Source: Methylorubrum aminovorans
GTDB lineage: Bacteria; Pseudomonadota; Alphaproteobacteria; Rhizobiales; Beijerinckiaceae
DNA length: 64,000 bases
Reading direction: 5' to 3'
NCBI RefSeq assembly: GCF_022179725.1
Contig: NZ_BPRC01000005.1
Span: 124,001 to 188,000 of the forward strand
The notes below the pieces were generated by a model. It made no database searches, was not told the DNA's origin, and saw nothing but the letters and a program-made list of their open reading frames with translations. The translations under genes were made by a program, and so were the position numbers. Positions 41,465 to 49,137 of the stretch are shown here, one piece after another. Each line of letters begins with the position of its first letter. Within the stretch, counting starts at the first letter, position 1.

Positions 41465-41752
41465 TCATACGAGTTCGACCCGCAAATCCCGTCCAACCGC
41501 GCGAGCGGCGCGCACCAGGGATTCCAACGTCGCGGCGCCATTCGACGGGTCGAGGAGACGGTCGACCTGAGCGCGGCTCGTCTGCATGAGTTCGGCCATC
41601 CGAACCTTGCTGATCTTCTGGCGCTTCATCTCCGATGCGATCTGCTCGGCGATGATGCTCTTGGCCGCCGCCGCCTTCACCTCTTCGGCAATGCCCTCGG
41701 CTTCGAGCCAGCTCTCGAAGCTCGATCCGATATGGGGGCTGTCCGCTCTCAT
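41465..41752 (-). CDS. Helix-turn-helix antitoxin
   Basis: This 95-residue XRE-type protein has its helix-turn-helix in the second half (KRQKISKVRMAELMQTSRAQVDRLLD). It resembles HigA-like antitoxins that bind their own promoter and the partner toxin. Its start overlaps the toxin stop (ATGA), so toxin and antitoxin are one transcript with the toxin first. Confidence 0.82.
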   Translation of the reverse strand: MRADSPHIGSSFESWLEAEGIAEEVKAAAAKSIIAEQIASEMKRQKISKVRMAELMQTSRAQVDRLLDPSNGAATLESLVRAARAVGRDLRVELV

Positions 41753-42096
41753 CTCGTCACTTCCTTTAAGCGCCGCCGTGCCAGTTCAAGCTCTGCCGCC
41801 GGCGTCCGCTGCGCCTTCTTGACGAAGGCATGCAGGGCAATCAGCTGGCCTTCGTGGAACCCGAACAGCAGGCGGGCTTCGCGTCGGCTCGGCAACGTCG
41901 AACGCACCTCGAACAATCCGCCCGCCATGGGCCGACAGACCGGCAACCCGATCGGCCAACCCAGTTGAACACGACGAACGTCGAAGCCGACGACGCGCTT
42001 GTCCTCCAGCGGCAATCCCCTCAGCCACTCGCGGACCGGCTCATGGCCTGCAGCGCTTCGATAGAAGACGAGAGGGATGGTCGGCACGGCAGACAT
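41749..42096 (-). CDS. RelE/HigB-type toxin (phage Gp49-like family)
   Basis: This 115-residue protein has the Gp49-like pattern VFYRSAAGHEPVREWLRGLP, FEVRSTLPSRREARLLFGFHEGQLIALHAFVKKAQRTP and then a charged C-terminal helix. The family typically cleaves ribosome-bound mRNA. The ATG at 42096 is preferred; a GTG-type alternative at 42129 would start inside the palindromic operator. It is the first gene of a toxin-first operon with the HTH antitoxin. Confidence 0.85.
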   Translation of the reverse strand: MSAVPTIPLVFYRSAAGHEPVREWLRGLPLEDKRVVGFDVRRVQLGWPIGLPVCRPMAGGLFEVRSTLPSRREARLLFGFHEGQLIALHAFVKKAQRTPAAELELARRRLKEVTR

Positions 42097-42104
42097 AACA
42101 AAAT

Positions 42105-42120
42105 GTACCGATAATGGTAC
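42105..42120 (-). promoter_or_regulatory. Palindrome overlapping the TA promoter
   Basis: GTACC-GATAAT-GGTAC is a short inverted repeat nine bases before the toxin start. The same bases give a CATTAT-like -10 box on the minus strand. This suggests a self-repressing operator, as is usual for such pairs, and a very short leader. Confidence 0.55.
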
Positions 42121-42135
42121 GTTCTGCAAGAGCCG

Positions 42136-45100
42136 TCACGCCGCCCGCGCCACCGGCTCCGCCACCGCGTGCACCACCGGCACGGCGGGCGCGCCCTCCC
42201 ATTCCGAATGCGCCGGGATCGACTCGCCCTTCATCACGATGGTGAGCGGGCGCAGCCGCGCATAGTCGCCGACATGGCTGTCGTAGAGGACGGTGGAGAA
42301 CGCCCCGACCGAGACGCCGCGCCCGACCACGACGCGCCCGACCTTCATGATGCGGTCCTCGTAGAGGTGGGTCTGGAGCGCTGCCGAGCGGTTGATGGTG
42401 ACGTAATCGCCGATCTCGACGCAGTCGAACTCGGTGATGTCGGTCATCAGCAGGCAGGTGCCCCGGCCCACCTTCACGCCGAACAGCCGCAGCGCCCAGG
42501 GCAGGAAGGGCGTGCCGGTCAGGTGCTCCAGCAGAACCTTGCCGGCCAAGCCCCAATAGGCCACCGCGATGGCCTCGGTGCGCATTGCCCACCACGACCA
42601 CATCGGCCGCATGCCGGGGCGGTAGCGCCCCATCAGCAGCCACTTGAGGGCGATGACGCTGCTCGTCTGGATCAGCGCGATGATCACGCTCGCGAGCACG
42701 AAGGCGAGCGCCAGCCCGCCCCAATCCTCGGCGAGGATTGCCGGGTAGAACACCCAGTCGATCGCGCAGATGGCGAGCGAGATGTAGAGCATCGGCGAGA
42801 ACGAGGTGGCGAAGGCCTCGAACAGGCCGCGCCGCAGCTTGGCCCCCACGCTCGGCTGGAAGGTCTGGGCGGCGGATCCGAGATCGACCTTCTGGCGCAC
42901 CGGCAGGCGGATCGGCGGCGAGCCGAACCACGTCTCGCCCGGCCCCATCGCCGCGTTGGCCGGCGGCTTCGACTTGATGCCGATCAGCACGTCGTCGGGC
43001 AGCCGCGTGCCCGGCGGCAGCACGCCGTCATTGCCGACGAAGACGCGGGCGCCGGTCTCGACGGTGTGAAGGTGCATCCAGCCGCGGCGGATCTCCTCCT
43101 CGCCGACCACCACCTCGTCGGCGATGAAGTTGTTGGGCCCGACCGAGACGAGGTCGTGGCGCGAGCCGAGATTGGTCGAGATCTCGGCGCCCCGGCCCAT
43201 CCTTGCCCCCATCAGCCGGTACCACGCCCGCATGTAGACGGTGGCGAACAGCGAGGAGAGCGTCTCCAGCGTCACCTCGGAGGCGAGCGCCACCAGCCAC
43301 TTGCGCAGGTAGAAGCCCGACCAGATCGAGAACGTGCCGGAGGTCTTCCGCGGCAGCACCGCCCAGCGGATCGCGGCGATGAGCAGCACCGTGCCCGCCG
43401 TCATCAGCATGGCGGTGGGCCAGGTCAGCAGCGGCAGGTAGACGTGGTAATCGACGTCGGTGATCTCCGAGAGGTGATCGGAGATCTGGTCGAACATGTA
43501 GAAGGCCGGGAAGATCGGCAGCAGGCCGACCGCCGGCACCGCCGCGAGCAGGAAGGCGTAGACCGCGCCGAACGCCGCCCGGCGGGCGGGCGAGGCGGTG
43601 GCAGGCTCGGGCAGCGCGGAGAAGTCGACGGTGCCGACCCGGCGGCCGGGCGAGCCGTCCCAGGCCTCGGCCGGGCCGATCTCGGTGCCGGCGGGCACGG
43701 TAGTGAGGTCGGCGATCTCGGCATGATCCCCGATCACCACGCCGGGGCCGATGACGCAGGAGGCGCCGATGGCGACATCCTCGCCGATCTCGACGGAGCC
43801 GATGACGAGTTCGTTGCCGACCACCTCGGCATTGGCGATGACGAGGCGCCCGCCGAGCGAGGATCCGCGGCCGACGGTGAGGAGGTCGGCAGCCCCCACG
43901 TCGAGGTCGGAGACCAGCACGTCGTCGCCGATCCTGGCGCCGAGCAGCCGCAGATAGGCGACGATGGCGGGCGAGCCCTGGAGCCACTTGATATGGACCA
44001 GCGGCGTCAGGCGCTGCGCCAGCCACCAGCGGTAATAATAGACGCCCCAGAGCGGGTAGCGGCCCGGTTTGGTCCGCCCGAGGATCAGCCACTTGGCGGC
44101 AATCGCGATCGCCGCCGTCACCGCGTTGATGCCGATATAGACGAGCAGCAGGACGCCGAGCTCGCCCCAGAAGCCTAAGCCCCCGCCGGTCAGCAACAGG
44201 TAGGTGACGAAGATGCCGAGCCACTGCGCGGTGGCGAGCGCGATGACGAACGGGAGAGCCGCCGCCTGGGCCAGCCCGCACAGGGCGCGCCGCAGGAGCG
44301 GGGGCGGCGTGAAGCTCAGGTCCCGGATCGCGGTCTGCGCGCCGACGCCGCCGGTGCGCTCGATCAGGCTCGCCGCCATCGCCCGGAGCTTGCGACCGGT
44401 ATAGACGTCCTGCAGGGTGATGCCGGCGAGCGCCGGCGTCGCGCGCACCGCGCCGACGAAGCGGGCGGCGAGCAGCGAGTGGCCGCCGAGTTCGGAGAAG
44501 AAGTCGGCCTCAAGCCCGATCGGCCCATCGCCGAACACCGTCTTGGCGGCGGCCAGCAGCGCCGCCTCGGTCTCGTTGTCGGGGGGCTCCTGCTCGCCCT
44601 CGGCCACCGCGACCGTCAGGGGGGCAATCCGCAGGGCCTTGCGGTCGACCTTGCCGGAGGTGAGCCGGGGCAGGGTCTCGACCGTCTCGAAATGGCCGGG
44701 CACCATGTAGGGCGGCATCTGCGCGGCCAGGCTCTTGCGGAGCGCCGCCCGGTCGAGCCCGGCGCCGCGCTCGGGCACGAGGAAAGCCACGAGGCGATCG
44801 ACCTCATCGTCGCGGCGCAGGACCACCGCGGCCTGGTTGATGCCCGCCTCGCCCCGGATGCGGGCCTCGATCTCGCCGAGCTCGACGCGAAAGCCGCGGA
44901 TTTTGACCTGATCGTCGATGCGGCCGTGGAAGACGATGTCGCCCTCCGTCGTCATCGAGACGGCGTCGCCCGAGCGGTAGAGCACCGGGTCGGTCCCGTC
45001 GGACGGGTAGGGGTTGGCGACGAATTTCTCCGCCGTCAGTTCGGGCCGCTTGAGATAGCCCGCCGCGACGCCGGGGCCGCCGATCAGCAATTCGCCTTGC

Positions 45101-46320
45101 TCGCCGGGCCCGAGCAGGTTCAGGGCCTCGTCGGCGACATAGACGGAGTAATTCGGGATCGGGCCGCCGATGGTGACGGGCCGGCCCGGCCGCATCTCGG
45201 CGGCGGTCGCCACCACGGTGGCTTCCGTCGGGCCGTAGGTGTTGAACAGGCGCCGCTCACCGGTCGCCCAGCGCGCCACCAGCGGCTCGGGCAGGGCCTC
45301 TCCCCCGAGCAGGACGAGGCGGACGCTCGGCAGATCGCCGGGGATCATCGCGAGCAGGGTCGGCACCGTGTCGAGCACGGTGATGCCGGCCTGCGCGATG
45401 ATCGCGGGCAGCGACTCGACATCGCCCATCATCGCGGGGCTCGCCACGAACAGGCAGGCGCCGACGAGATAGGGGACCCAGATCTCCTCCATCGAGAGAT
45501 CGAAGGCCACCGAGGCGCCCTGGAACACCACGTCGTCGGCGCGGAGGCCGTAGACGGCGTTGCCCGAGCGCAGGAAGTGGCAGATGTTGGCGTGGCTGAT
45601 GACGATGCCCTTCGGCACGCCGGTCGAGCCCGAGGTGTAGATCAGGTAGGCCGGGTGCGCCGGGGTCAGCCCGGCAGCATCGAGATCGGGCGCAGAGGCG
45701 CCCTGCCCCGCCGCCAGCACCTCAGACGTCGTCAGCGCGGGCGTGCCCTCCGGCGCCTGGGGGCGCAGCGCCTCCGAGACGAGGAGCGCCTTGGCCTCGG
45801 CATCGCCCAGGCAGACCGCGACGCGGTCGGCGGGCGCCTCCGCGTCGAAGGGAAGCCAGGCGGCGCCGGATTTGGCGATGCCGATCTGCGCGATCAGCAG
45901 TTCGGTGCCGCGGGCCATCCATAGGCCCACCACATCCCCCGGCCCGATACCGCGGGCGGACAGCCCTGCGGCGAGGGCGTCGGAGCGGGCATCGACCTGC
46001 GCATAAGTCAGGACCGGGCGGGGACCGTCCGCGCCGGGCGCGGCGGCGTCGATCAGGCAGGGCGCATCGGCCCGCTCCCGCGCGCTCGCCCGGAACAGGG
46101 CGGCGAGCGTCTCCCGGCGGATCAGGTCGGGGCGCGCGGCCCCCCGCAGGATAGCCCGGCCGCCGCGGCTTCCGCCCGGTCCCTCGTCGTGCCGCCCCGC
46201 CTCGGCGAGGCCGCCCCTCCGATGCTCTGCTGCCGATTCCACGTGCTGCTCATTCCCGGATCGGTCGAACCTCGCGCCGACGCTCACGGCGCGCGCGGTC
46301 ACCCGCCCCATGATCGGCAC
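42136..46320 (-). CDS. Pls-like membrane nonribosomal peptide synthetase
   Basis: This protein of about 1,390 residues has the layout of epsilon-poly-lysine synthetase (Pls). The adenylation domain spans about 70-560 (YTSGSTGVPKG, 228-238). The carrier-protein serine is in LGGHSLL (S615). Three pairs of membrane helices (about 690-745, 915-1000, 1160-1240) alternate with three left-handed beta-helix (hexapeptide) domains. By eye, the pocket residues are D274, L275, E278, D317, L337, G339, T361, V369, V370 and K557. The two acidic residues suit a basic amino acid. There is no condensation or thioesterase domain. The product could be a homopolymer of a basic amino acid or a modified amino acid (inference). 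GTG at 46320 and ATG at 46311 both fit; AAGGG lies upstream. No phosphopantetheinyl transferase is nearby. Confidence 0.82.
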   Translation of the reverse strand: MPIMGRVTARAVSVGARFDRSGNEQHVESAAEHRRGGLAEAGRHDEGPGGSRGGRAILRGAARPDLIRRETLAALFRASARERADAPCLIDAAAPGADGPRPVLTYAQVDARSDALAAGLSARGIGPGDVVGLWMARGTELLIAQIGIAKSGAAWLPFDAEAPADRVAVCLGDAEAKALLVSEALRPQAPEGTPALTTSEVLAAGQGASAPDLDAAGLTPAHPAYLIYTSGSTGVPKGIVISHANICHFLRSGNAVYGLRADDVVFQGASVAFDLSMEEIWVPYLVGACLFVASPAMMGDVESLPAIIAQAGITVLDTVPTLLAMIPGDLPSVRLVLLGGEALPEPLVARWATGERRLFNTYGPTEATVVATAAEMRPGRPVTIGGPIPNYSVYVADEALNLLGPGEQGELLIGGPGVAAGYLKRPELTAEKFVANPYPSDGTDPVLYRSGDAVSMTTEGDIVFHGRIDDQVKIRGFRVELGEIEARIRGEAGINQAAVVLRRDDEVDRLVAFLVPERGAGLDRAALRKSLAAQMPPYMVPGHFETVETLPRLTSGKVDRKALRIAPLTVAVAEGEQEPPDNETEAALLAAAKTVFGDGPIGLEADFFSELGGHSLLAARFVGAVRATPALAGITLQDVYTGRKLRAMAASLIERTGGVGAQTAIRDLSFTPPPLLRRALCGLAQAAALPFVIALATAQWLGIFVTYLLLTGGGLGFWGELGVLLLVYIGINAVTAAIAIAAKWLILGRTKPGRYPLWGVYYYRWWLAQRLTPLVHIKWLQGSPAIVAYLRLLGARIGDDVLVSDLDVGAADLLTVGRGSSLGGRLVIANAEVVGNELVIGSVEIGEDVAIGASCVIGPGVVIGDHAEIADLTTVPAGTEIGPAEAWDGSPGRRVGTVDFSALPEPATASPARRAAFGAVYAFLLAAVPAVGLLPIFPAFYMFDQISDHLSEITDVDYHVYLPLLTWPTAMLMTAGTVLLIAAIRWAVLPRKTSGTFSIWSGFYLRKWLVALASEVTLETLSSLFATVYMRAWYRLMGARMGRGAEISTNLGSRHDLVSVGPNNFIADEVVVGEEEIRRGWMHLHTVETGARVFVGNDGVLPPGTRLPDDVLIGIKSKPPANAAMGPGETWFGSPPIRLPVRQKVDLGSAAQTFQPSVGAKLRRGLFEAFATSFSPMLYISLAICAIDWVFYPAILAEDWGGLALAFVLASVIIALIQTSSVIALKWLLMGRYRPGMRPMWSWWAMRTEAIAVAYWGLAGKVLLEHLTGTPFLPWALRLFGVKVGRGTCLLMTDITEFDCVEIGDYVTINRSAALQTHLYEDRIMKVGRVVVGRGVSVGAFSTVLYDSHVGDYARLRPLTIVMKGESIPAHSEWEGAPAVPVVHAVAEPVARAA

Positions 46321-46467: not shown

Positions 46468-47382
46468 TCACCCGGTCACGAGGTGCAGGGCCCGCTCGGC
46501 CGGTGCGATCCGCACCTGTCGGCCCCAGCCGAACCCCAGAAAGTCCTGCTCGATCCCGTCGGCGAAGACCACGCCGCCCTCGTTCATCCGCGAGGTGACG
46601 TGCAGCGGCGTGTCGGTGATCTTGCCGGCCCGCAGCCGTGTGGCGGTGGCAACGCTGGGGAACGGCTCGCGCACCCAGTAGCCCACCGCTCGCTCGCCGG
46701 GGGCGAGCGACAGGTCGAGCCCGGTCGCCTCACGGATCGAGCGGGCCCAGCCGGTGGCGCCGGTGCCGGAGGCGACGATGAGCCCGCTGGAGGAATGCTC
46801 CTCGCCCTCCTCACGCGCCTCCATGCCCTCTTGCCCGACCTCGATCCGGTAGCGGGCGGATTGGTGGCTGCGGTGGCCGACGAAGATCTCGTTGAGGGCG
46901 AACAGGCGCTCGGTCCCGTCGATCACCGCCTCGACCATGGTGCGTCGCTCAACGGCCACATCGCCCGCGACGCTCGCCGGCAGCAGCCGGGAGAGCCGCT
47001 CGACGGGGTTGCGGACCAGCACGCCGTCATAGAGGTCGGGCGCCGGGTTCACGCCGATCACCGGCTGCGCACCGAGATATTTCGCGACGTTGGCGATCAG
47101 ACCGTCCTGTCCAACGGCGACGACCACGTCGTCGGGGCCGAACAGGAAGCGGTCGAGATCGGCCCGCCGCACCAGAGCCTGGCGCCACTCGCCCGGCACC
47201 GCGGCCCGCGCTTGCGCCAGCACCGCGTGGAAACGCTCGTGGCGCGCCTCGACCGCGGCGAGCCCCTGACCACGGCTCTCCAGGAAGAAGCGGGCCTGTC
47301 CCCTGGTGGCGTGCCGGGCGATCAGGAGTTCGTAATCGGTCTCGCGGGTGACGAAGACCGCCCGCGGGGTGAGCGCGGCCAT
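46468..47382 (-). CDS. NAD-kinase-like protein
   Basis: This 304-residue protein has the NAD kinase fold signs: VVVAVGQDGLIANVAK (91-94 GQDG in place of GGDG), the NE motif FALNEIFVG (164-165), and SSSGLIVASGTGATGW (about 197-212), which replaces the usual STPTGSTAY. The catalytic Asp is retained but the flanking residues differ, so it is a divergent member that might phosphorylate NAD or a related nucleotide. It lies 11 bases after the SPFH gene in an operon headed by a NrtR-like regulator of NAD metabolism. Confidence 0.68.
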   Translation of the reverse strand: MAALTPRAVFVTRETDYELLIARHATRGQARFFLESRGQGLAAVEARHERFHAVLAQARAAVPGEWRQALVRRADLDRFLFGPDDVVVAVGQDGLIANVAKYLGAQPVIGVNPAPDLYDGVLVRNPVERLSRLLPASVAGDVAVERRTMVEAVIDGTERLFALNEIFVGHRSHQSARYRIEVGQEGMEAREEGEEHSSSGLIVASGTGATGWARSIREATGLDLSLAPGERAVGYWVREPFPSVATATRLRAGKITDTPLHVTSRMNEGGVVFADGIEQDFLGFGWGRQVRIAPAERALHLVTG

Positions 47383-47393
47383 GGAGCCCTCCT

Positions 47394-48374
47394 TCAGCGG
47401 GCCGGGAGGCCGGGGGATCGGCGGACCTCGCCGAGCAGGCTGGCCAGCAGGTCCGGGGTGACGTTGACGTGCTCGATCGTGTCGAGCTTGCCCGCCAGGG
47501 CCTGGGCGGCGAGGCCGAGCAGGGTGCCCGGCGCCACGTCGCGGTAGATCGCGACCCGCGCCCGCTCGGCCTCGGCCCGCGCGCCCTCGACCATGCGGAT
47601 GCGCTCGGCCTCGGCGCCGGCCTCGATCCCTTCCGCCCCGGCCCGTCCTTGCGCCCGGTTGCGGGCGTTCTGCGCCTCCTCGGCGATCAGCAGGCTCTCG
47701 CGCCGGGCGAGTTCGGTCCGGGTGGCGAGTTCGTTCTCGGCGATGGCGCGTTCCTTCTCCACGGCCAGCGCCCGTCGGGCGAAGGTCGCCTCGTCGGCCT
47801 TCTGCTGCAGTGCCTCGTAGGTCGGCGTCTGCAGCGCGCGCTCCAGCTCGCTCGACGGGGCGAGATTGGTGAGCCGCACCGAGACCACGGCGACGCCGAT
47901 CTCAGCCAGCGACGGCTCGGCGGCGAGCGCCGCCTGCAATTGCCCGCGCAAGGATTCCGGCCCGGCATCGAGCAGCGCACGCACCGGCGCCTGTCCCAGA
48001 AACTGCAGCACGGTCTGGTTGGCGAGCCCGGCGATGCGCGCCTCGATCCGCTCGACCGGCTCGCCCTGGAGCCGGCCGGTGCGCAGGTCGAGGGAGAAGT
48101 CGATCCGGCTCGCGAGCCGCTCGGGATCGGCGACGTGCCAGCCGATGCTGCCCTGGACCGCCACGGTCTGGAAGTCGCTGCTGCGGCCGCGCACGAACAG
48201 CGTCATCTCGCGGTCGTCCATCGGCAGTTCGCTGATGCTCGCGGTCTCCGGCCGGAACCAGAAGACGAGGCCGCGCCCGCTCTGACGCGGGCGGCCGTCG
48301 CGGTAGCGGACCACGTAGTGGCTGGCCTCGCTCCGAAGCTGGGAGAGAACGCCGAAGCGGCGGATCGTGGCCAT
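47394..48374 (-). CDS. SPFH/band-7 domain protein
   Basis: This 326-residue protein shows the SPFH domain in the first half (VVRYRDGRPRQSGRGLVFWFRP, then AVQGSIGWHVADPERLASRIDF). A long Ala/Glu/Arg-rich coiled-coil follows (about 195-275, EKERAIAENELATRTELARRES). There is no obvious membrane segment, so it may attach to membranes through partners or an N-terminal loop. Such proteins form rings or scaffolds. It sits between the NrtR-like and NAD-kinase-like genes, with one base separating it from the former. Confidence 0.85.
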   Translation of the reverse strand: MATIRRFGVLSQLRSEASHYVVRYRDGRPRQSGRGLVFWFRPETASISELPMDDREMTLFVRGRSSDFQTVAVQGSIGWHVADPERLASRIDFSLDLRTGRLQGEPVERIEARIAGLANQTVLQFLGQAPVRALLDAGPESLRGQLQAALAAEPSLAEIGVAVVSVRLTNLAPSSELERALQTPTYEALQQKADEATFARRALAVEKERAIAENELATRTELARRESLLIAEEAQNARNRAQGRAGAEGIEAGAEAERIRMVEGARAEAERARVAIYRDVAPGTLLGLAAQALAGKLDTIEHVNVTPDLLASLLGEVRRSPGLPAR

Positions 48375-48375
48375 G

Positions 48376-49137
48376 TCAGTCTCCTTTCGAGAGCGTTTGC
48401 GAGGGGGTTTGCGAGGGGATTCGAAGAAAGCGGTACAGCTCGGCCGGGCGGTAGGACGTGCCTGTCTCGAATTGGCCGGTGGGTTCGAGCCAGCCGCGGT
48501 CGAGCATGCGGCGGCGGAAGGCGGGCTTGTTGAGGCGCGTGCCGAGGATCGCCTCGTGCACGTCCTGAAGCTGGCGCAGGGTGAAGAGCTCCGGCAGCAA
48601 GGCGAAGCCGACCTCCGAATAATCGAGCTTGCCCTGCAGCCGCCGCAGGGCGAGGGCGACGATCTCGGCGTGGTCGAAGGCGAGGGTGAGCGCCGCGCCG
48701 TCGGCCGCGCGGACCGTCACGGATCCCTCATCCGACGCCGTGACCGTGCCGGGCTGCAGGGCCGGGGCCCGCGCCAGCGCCTCGGCGAAGGCCGCCTCGG
48801 TCAGGAGCGCGAGATGGGCGACCGTGACGATGCGCATGCGCGGATCCCGCTCGACGGCGCCGAAGGTGTAGAGCTGCTCCAGATGCGCCCGCGCCCCGCC
48901 CGCCTTCTCCACCAGGACGCGGGCGGCGGCGTCATCCAGCGACTCGTCGATCCCGACGAAGCCGCCGGGCAGCGCGTGTCGCCCCGCATGCGGGTGGCGG
49001 TCGCGCCGCAGCAGCAGGAGGGCGGGACGGCCGCCGGAGAGCCCCAGCAGAACCAGATCGACGGCGACGGCCGGCCGCGCGTAATCGGCGGGATCGTAGC
49101 GCGCCAGGAAGGCGGCCTCGGACTCGACGGGACCCAT
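48376..49137 (-). CDS. NrtR-like Nudix transcriptional regulator
   Basis: This 253-residue protein has an N-terminal Nudix domain with a degraded Nudix box (about 58-80: GGFVGIDESLDDAAARVLVEKAGG). The catalytic RE and EE are RV and EK, so catalysis is unlikely. The C-terminal half (about 185-245: LPELFTLRQLQDVHEAILGT, then KPAFRRRMLDRGWLEPTG) is the winged-helix domain of NrtR proteins, which repress NAD-synthesis genes and release DNA on binding ADP-ribose. It heads the operon NrtR-SPFH-NAD-kinase-like. A palindromic AT-rich stretch stands just before it. Confidence 0.82.
   Translation of the reverse strand: MGPVESEAAFLARYDPADYARPAVAVDLVLLGLSGGRPALLLLRRDRHPHAGRHALPGGFVGIDESLDDAAARVLVEKAGGARAHLEQLYTFGAVERDPRMRIVTVAHLALLTEAAFAEALARAPALQPGTVTASDEGSVTVRAADGAALTLAFDHAEIVALALRRLQGKLDYSEVGFALLPELFTLRQLQDVHEAILGTRLNKPAFRRRMLDRGWLEPTGQFETGTSYRPAELYRFLRIPSQTPSQTLSKGD

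Follow-up and report, generated by a model that had tools for sequence, protein, structure and literature searches.

Positions 42136 to 46320 (minus strand) of a 64,000-nucleotide stretch of the Methylorubrum aminovorans genome (contig NZ_BPRC01000005.1, positions 124,001 to 188,000; here called the window, meaning the whole stretch that was analyzed) hold an open reading frame (ORF) for a single-module nonribosomal peptide synthetase (NRPS) of the Pls/PosA family. The ORF has 1,394 codons counted from its first GTG, and translation probably begins at the GTG at 46242, where the close relative L152 starts. Within the window, the gene is flanked by suf genes and by an NrtR/SPFH gene group. The synthetase gene has the following features.

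42136 to 46320, minus strand: whole ORF of the Pls/PosA-family synthetase (1,394 codons from the first GTG; TIGR02353)
42136 to 46242, minus strand: likely real coding sequence from the GTG at 46242, about 1,368 amino acids (aa), judged by the start of L152
44626 to 46095, minus strand: adenylation domain, approximately aa 76-565 (PF00501 and PF13193)
45211 to 45501, minus strand: stretch with all pocket residues but the tenth, D274 to V370 (PosA alignment and multiple alignment)
44650 to 44652, minus strand: tenth pocket residue, K557 (multiple alignment), which from knowledge of the family we take to be the catalytic lysine
44371 to 44562, minus strand: carrier (PP-binding) domain, aa 587-650, with the phosphopantetheine serine S615 in GGHS (PF00550)
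42184 to 44271, minus strand: C-terminal domain TIGR02353, aa 684-1379 (profile match and AlphaFold model)
44080 to 44268, minus strand: membrane helix pair 1, aa 685-747 (hydropathy and AlphaFold)
43357 to 43590, minus strand: membrane helix pair 2, aa 911-988 (hydropathy and AlphaFold)
42634 to 42849, minus strand: membrane helix pair 3, aa 1158-1229 (hydropathy and AlphaFold)
42355 to 42375, minus strand: QTHLYED motif, aa 1316-1322, which its conservation suggests as a candidate for a catalytic role in the C-terminal domain

A Pfam scan of the whole protein matched six families, none of which is a condensation or thioesterase domain. AMP-binding (PF00501) covers aa 76-423 (268.8 bits) and AMP-binding_C (PF13193) covers aa 483-557; PP-binding (PF00550) barely passes (21.8 bits versus a cutoff of 20.8), and hexapeptide-repeat stretches were also matched. 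The C-terminal part (aa 684-1379) matches TIGR02353 (NCBIfam "Pls/PosA family non-ribosomal peptide synthetase") at 573.3 bits versus a cutoff of 423.1, and a profile search of the organism's own genome (576 bits for this protein) found one copy over the cutoff. An AlphaFold model of aa 684-1394, built from 41 sequences (mean pLDDT, 87.3; pTM, 0.88), shows a long helix pair followed by beta-helix strands, three times over. Hydropathy peaks coincide with all six helices, and a weaker peak lies at aa 845-864. The PosA model described in PMC10522769 likewise contains three helix pairs with intervening beta-helix domains. A sequence-only reading of this DNA had described the same layout (adenylation, carrier, and three repeats of a membrane pair plus beta-helix, with no condensation or thioesterase domain), and the Pfam matches, the TIGR02353 score of 573 bits, and the model (pLDDT, 87) all agree with it. 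The synthetase belongs to an enzyme family that is already known, of which it is a conserved but uncharacterized representative; it is not new in kind.

The substrate pocket of the adenylation domain reads DLEDLGTVVK (D274, L275, E278, D317, L337, G339, T361, V369, V370, and K557, equivalent to pocket positions 235, 236, 239, 278, 299, 301, 322, 330, 331, and 517). The first nine residues were read off the alignment with PosA (8g95/8g97; 351 bits), which is gap-free around the pocket motifs. Together with the multiple alignment, it gives the same ten letters that had been read by eye. DLEDLGTVVK was present at all 34 same-genus loci read (including the window gene; mostly the best-scoring loci among the 99 genomes searched), so the pocket is not a chance reading. 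The exceptions within the genus are second copies, L158 (genome G011) and L160 (genome G090), which read DLEDIGSVVK; one fragment, L076, has no readable code. L158 falls outside the main clade of the genus, suggesting that this second copy was probably acquired separately. The pattern DLED[ILV]G[ST]VVK (hereinafter, the DLED class) was found in 199 of 239 relatives (81 DLEDIGSVVK, 71 DLEDLGTVVK, 39 DLEDIGTVVK, 6 DLEDVGSVVK, and 2 DLEDVGTVVK), a share that is biased upward because the set includes near-copies and the best 80 of more matches, picked by their DLED likeness; 33 relatives carry other codes, and 7 are not fully readable.

The closest characterized enzyme with a solved structure is PosA, the delta-poly-L-ornithine synthetase of Acinetobacter baumannii (PMC10522769; PDB 8G95-8G98), which has the same domain order and C-terminal fold. 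In a comparison of the adenylation core with solved structures, PosA (8G95/8G97) was the best match (351 bits), followed by five LgrA sequences (309 bits, two domains summed), and the epsilon-poly-L-lysine synthetase Pls (7WEW) scored 177 bits. The relative L066, which carries the PosA code (DMEHNGTVSK), also has PosA as its best solved match (405 bits). The protein had been called "Pls-like"; this description fits as far as family and layout are concerned (PMC10522769), but the nearest solved enzyme is PosA rather than Pls, as both the bit scores and a sister clade indicate. The codes of PosA and of the window gene are identical at six of ten positions (D235, E239, G301, T322, V330, and K517). 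At the other four, PosA has Met (236), His (278), Asn (299), and Ser (331), where the DLED class has Leu, Asp, Leu or Ile, and Val.

Phylogenetic trees, which contained only relatives from these searches and no characterized enzyme, placed the DLED class beside PosA-code enzymes. In a FastTree phylogeny of 114 rows (33 non-DLED rows plus 81 DLED loci under 88% identity), all 81 DLED rows lay on one side of a branch with a support of 100, and the branch nearest to them, joined to them with a support of 100, comprised three DMEHNGTVSK rows; other DMEHN rows fell farther out. In the same tree, the Methylobacterium variabile record (L232) grouped with the rows of the window gene's genus, which was taken on that ground to be Methylobacterium. 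A quick IQ-TREE run on 33 rows from which the ten pocket columns had been removed gave SH-aLRT values of 100 for the DLED clade, 99 with the three DMEHNGTVSK rows added, and 99 with L046 (DMEHNGTVTK) added as well. DLED plus DMEHNGTVSK rows had a support of 98 in a tree of the C-terminal domain, and DLED plus four DMEHN rows had a support of 99 in a tree of the adenylation domain. The domain-wise trees left out L107, L136, L037, L038, L039, L065, and L139 and kept 14 DLED rows; the tree lacking pocket columns additionally left out L040, L043, L045, and L140 and kept 11. The DLED clade is thus a sister of the PosA-code enzymes and is not nested inside them (support, 99; PosA itself is not a row), a placement from which the class would most simply descend from enzymes with the PosA code. 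F-type relatives (DFEALGTVTK and similar), which occur in the same taxonomic order and, within the family Beijerinckiaceae, in two genomes or more (G655 and G737 among them), form a separate clade, with F where the DLED class has L and A where it has D at position 278. Two apparent long fusions, L165 (2,182 aa) and L136 (2,022 aa), look like out-of-frame upstream extensions, and L214 runs through N.

The genome of the organism contains two ACPS-family (PF01648) matches. One of them lies in a frame of 285 aa and, judging from this length, is probably an Sfp-type phosphopantetheinyl transferase (PPTase). Two or more PF01648 matches occurred in 94 of the 101 Beijerinckiaceae genomes with the synthetase versus 16 of the 48 without it (Fisher's exact test, P of approximately 3e-14, a test that ignores kinship). 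Nine genera include both carriers and noncarriers; three of these separate fully by PPTase count (g275, g280, and g285) and two partly (g4 and g272), the sole g280 carrier (G737) having an F-type enzyme. A PPTase-like gene (named by eye) lies within 5 kb at 10 of the 81 nonredundant DLED loci.

We lean modestly toward the interpretation that the window gene encodes a functional Pls/PosA-family enzyme that synthesizes a cationic homopolymer. Its adenylation domain would use ATP to activate a basic alpha-amino acid, with D274 binding the alpha-amine and E278 and D317 binding the side chain. S615, primed by a PPTase, would then hold the monomer as a thioester, and the carrier-bound basic monomers would be joined into a cationic homopolymer. 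Family, domains, pocket letters, the kept C-terminal residues, the two ACPS-family genes, and the tree position can be read from the sequence or the model; the substrate, polymerization, bond type, and the location and role of the product considered below are inferred. The most likely product would be an isopeptide polymer of ornithine; the identification of the monomer as ornithine is tentative, at slightly less than an even chance, and comes mainly from the kinship with PosA-code enzymes. Mutant data on PosA (PMC10522769) help to place the pocket residues: E221 (position 239) is essential, the delta-amine is bound by T304 (33-fold loss) and by S313 (183-fold loss), and M218 (position 236) sets chain length, being Met in PosA, Phe in the PDAP/PDAB synthetases, and Ala in Pls. 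In the window protein, Leu at 236 (neither Ala nor Phe) is close in size to the Met of PosA, positions 239 and 322 are kept, and H260 is replaced by Asp.

Several observations weigh against this interpretation. The trees lack characterized enzymes, and in the adenylation-domain tree, the DLED clade itself has a support of 88 and takes no settled position with respect to the DMEHN rows. LgrA (two domains summed) ranks first in a whole-protein PDB search, with PosA next at 378 bits. All four pocket changes relative to PosA also count here, among them the replacement by Val of S313, whose Ala mutant showed the 183-fold loss (PMC10522769), and the pairing of E239 with D278, which is that of the arginine consensus (PMC12283262). 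By letters, the closest published code is the lysine code DGEDHGTVVK (8 of 10). A crude sum of residue volumes over seven pocket positions is 874-901 for DLED codes versus 757-835 for ornithine codes, nearest to an F-type, shorter-diamino-acid code (878) and to one arginine code (872). Searches of the open-licence literature showed no product for the DLED group. With respect to the PPTase link, 7 of the 101 carriers show one PPTase and 16 of the 48 noncarriers show at least two; four of the nine mixed genera (g262, g266, g5, and g293) show no difference; and no PPTase was seen within 5 kb at 71 of the 81 DLED loci, 24 of the 81 having short flanks. The Fisher test is blind to relatedness, and the organism's genome also contains one condensation-domain gene, so the PPTase may have other clients.

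The pocket appears suited to a basic substrate, as had been proposed from the sequence, but the accompanying claim that acidic residues at the third and fourth pocket positions single out lysine, ornithine, or 2,4-diaminobutyrate (Dab) did not hold, since Glu239 plus Asp278 is also an arginine signature (PMC12283262 and PMC5311044). The codes listed in PMC12283262 are D-A/V-E-D-I/V/L-G-A-V/I-T/D-K for arginine, DMEDVGSVDK for ornithine (also lysine), DGEDHGTVVK for lysine, and DGEDHGTVTK for ornithine. ApnA in PMC5311044 has the arginine-only codes DVEDIGAIEK and DVEDIGAVEK and the arginine-plus-lysine code DVEDIGGVEK. Published ornithine, lysine, and arginine codes thus share both acids, and the acid pair fits any of the three; an assignment from code letters alone (DMEDVGSVDK, DGEDHGTVVK, DGEDHGTVTK, and the arginine consensus) was rejected because it cannot separate them. 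If arginine were activated, its guanidinium would be flanked by E278 and D317. Guanidine is a poor nucleophile, so instead of the usual homopolymer with isopeptide bonds through the side chain, one would expect oligo-arginine with alpha linkages or an acceptor modified by arginyl groups. The arginine consensus agrees with the window code at 7 of 10 positions by reading (all except 236, 322, and 331), the arginine-only ApnA codes share the acid pair, a Bdellovibrionales member of the enzyme family shows modest L-Arg activation (PMC10522769), and it is the H-to-D change at 278 that sets the DLED clade apart from the PosA code. Arginine codes, however, have small residues at 236 (A/V) and 322 (A), where the DLED class has L and T/S; the DLED volume sum exceeds those of the arginine codes tried (766-872), though it is near the largest; and the closest kin of the clade are ornithine-code enzymes. 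We regard arginine, both as monomer and as the basis of such a product, as quite improbable.

Lysine is a universal metabolite, and the final five letters of the window code (GTVVK) are the same as those of the A236-type relatives with DAESVGTVVK and of the lysine code DGEDHGTVVK (PMC12283262). The gene could be read as an epsilon-poly-L-lysine synthetase whose lysine pocket was reached independently of the Pls lineage. The lysine-type members of the family nevertheless have Ala at 236 (PMC10522769), where the DLED class has Leu; the DAESVGTVVK rows, which are taken to be lysine-like from A236 only, sit in another clade; and the volume sum of the DLED class exceeds those of DAESVGTVVK and DGEDHGTVVK (774-781; the lysine code tried, 781). 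Lysine as monomer is unlikely, and so, to much the same degree, is an independently evolved poly-lysine synthetase.

Other monomers, such as Dab, are taken together also unlikely, though slightly less so than lysine. The PDAP/PDAB synthetases belong to the same family and have a similar crude pocket volume but carry Phe at 236 (PMC10522769). In the organism's own genome, the best match to the 2,4-diaminobutyrate aminotransferase profile dat (TIGR00709) scored 140 bits versus a cutoff of 402, and that to ectB (TIGR02407) scored 190 versus 552. Dab is therefore disfavored on two counts, position 236 and the subthreshold dat and ectB scores. The volume sum hints at a short side chain and gives no preference to ornithine over Dab; as a substrate test it was rejected as crude and not decisive, since it exceeds the sums of the lysine, ornithine, and arginine codes without distinction and comes closest to that of the F-type code. 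The monomer is probably a primary metabolite, given that no amino-acid-modifying gene was seen among the recurring neighbor clusters of DLED genes inspected by eye, that dat and ectB fall below their cutoffs, and that a KamA-like gene, by comparison, accompanies every DGESVSVVNK locus. The latter loci (L137, L144, and L151) encode enzymes of the Pls/PosA family from the same taxonomic order, with a code one letter off the epsilon-poly-beta-lysine code of PMC10522769, and a KamA-like radical SAM gene lies within 5 kb at all three. These enzymes are probable makers of beta-lysine polymers outside the actinomycetes.

From aa 561 onward, 48 positions have one residue at 90% or more in each of three classes (DLED, PosA-code, and F-type), the same residue also being the consensus of two small classes, all of these relatives coming from these searches with no characterized enzyme among them. 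The window protein keeps all 48, including S615, H1318, and E1321. The carrier serine S615 and Q1316, H1318, and E1321 of QTHLYED are conserved among the pocket classes, making this motif a candidate for a catalytic role. Most of the Foldseek matches to the C-terminal model (50 listed) were either acyltransferases with hexapeptide repeats or gamma-carbonic anhydrases; TMq did not exceed 0.18, indicating that each listed match covers only part of the domain; a PDB sequence search with the domain gave weak matches (best E value, 8.5e-05). An alternative without polymerization is that a basic amino acid is loaded onto an envelope acceptor, e.g., a lipid, by acyltransferase-like beta-helices. The prominence of acyltransferases among the Foldseek matches is in line with this idea, a core-gene distribution (98 of 99 genus genomes) fits a structural role better than an antibiotic, and amino-acyl hopanoids exist in alphaproteobacteria (e.g., N-ornithinyl aminotriol in Rhodomicrobium vannielii; PMC12583986). 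On the other hand, PMC10522769 ascribes several homopolymers to such enzymes, all 48 conserved positions are kept, only two C-terminal positions (T873 and M1246) are DLED-specific under the test used, and the amino-acyl hopanoids of PMC12583986 come from other genera. We consider loading onto an acceptor very unlikely. Amino-acylated hopanoids as the specific product were rejected, as the passages in PMC12583986 give no support for them in Methylobacterium.

The synthetase gene is nearly universal in its genus and common in its family. Of the 99 genus genomes, 98 carry it above the TIGR02353 cutoff, the exception being 70% complete. In the family, a search at an E value of 1e-60 found it in 101 of 149 genomes, which represent 33 of 43 genera (99 genomes over the cutoff), compared with 50/297 genomes at the rank of order, 10/385 at class, and 25/299 at phylum. 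Named relatives among the best 80 include Methylobacterium, Bosea, Chelatococcus, Camelimonas, Enterovirga, Methylosinus, Labrys, Rhizobium, Devosia, and Azospirillum. Within the family, the gene recurs at one site (dnaJ-fabI-phosphatase-pls-aroC-ribAB). Neighbors, named by eye from sequence, were compared at 93 loci with less than 88% identity, including 81 DLED loci. A histidine-phosphatase-like gene was present at 37, mostly 2.4-2.8 kb upstream (center to center) on the same strand, and a chorismate-synthase-like gene at 27, mostly 2.2-4.3 kb downstream on the same strand; DnaJ-, FabI-, and RibAB-like genes lie further out. Where each flank of a DLED locus spans 4 kb or more (57 loci), the block occurs on both sides at 16, upstream only at 17 (perhaps too high a count, as the FabI cluster also contains other short-chain dehydrogenases), downstream only at 5, and on neither side at 19, which include the window locus. 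The site may be ancestral. DnaJ, FabI, histidine phosphatase, chorismate synthase, and RibAB were rejected as functional partners, since they look like a housekeeping block and are thus informative on inheritance rather than on function. This setting differs from that of posA, which PMC10522769 describes as a single-gene operon.

Near-universality in the genus and the frequent recurrence at one site in the family lead us to think that the producing cell uses the product for its own envelope or surface physiology, and not as an occasional antibiotic. A further proposal, which we hold to be fairly unlikely, is that a vertically kept Beijerinckiaceae core enzyme makes a cationic polymer outside the seven of PMC10522769 (e.g., one based on arginine or on ornithine linked otherwise) as part of normal envelope or surface physiology. 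The cationic homopolymers treated in that paper come from actinomycetes and A. baumannii and are discussed mainly as antimicrobials. An enzyme with its own conserved pocket that is near-universal in a large environmental genus may therefore point to a widespread, unseen polymer, and because the pocket class lies beside ornithine-code enzymes, four positions apart, a single substrate assay would inform the reading of many genomes.

The DLED group itself is already in print. PMC10522769 lists the signature DLEDIGTV(T/V/I)K, Methylobacterium included, and PMC10508160 reports a non-alpha poly-amino acid (NAPAA) cluster with DLedLgTVvK, a code identical to that of the window gene, in a Bosea sp.; neither gives a substrate or product in its text. 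Such clusters occur in almost all of the Methylobacterium/Methylorubrum genomes of PMC8561711, and PMC9964534 mentions them in Methylobacterium. The earlier statement that no product had been described thus stands for the literature searched, but the group was not new to it. The searches likewise showed no report of an ornithine-type kinship of the group, and the listing of one search included no transposon or knockout data on the synthetase gene. Nor did these searches meet the single conserved pocket clade, the prevalence in genus and family, the recurring site, or the co-occurrence with a second PPTase. The present analysis adds the placement as a sister of PosA-code enzymes, the ambiguity with arginine, the recurring family site, and the PPTase link.

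Other loci and neighbors have features of their own. At Rhizobium- and Labrys-type loci (L142, L148, L169, L174, L182, and others), a response-regulator gene lies upstream on the opposite strand, which suggests regulated expression; in several of these loci, genes for a histidine kinase and for a small PepSY-like protein lie close to the response regulator, and several have a PPTase-like gene downstream (all by eye). In the window, directly 3' of the synthetase gene, 41465 to 42129 (minus strand) holds the gene for a Gp49/HigB-like protein (PF05973, 60.8 bits), which overlaps by 4 bases a 95-aa ORF that resembles an XRE-type antitoxin by eye, the two being a likely toxin-antitoxin pair. On the other side, three adjacent same-strand genes at 46468 to 49137 (minus strand) possibly form an NAD-related unit: one encodes a NUDIX protein that carries a DNA-binding domain of the NrtR type, another a protein of the SPFH/Band_7 type, and another a divergent protein resembling NAD kinase (35 bits versus a cutoff of 371, with no Pfam match).

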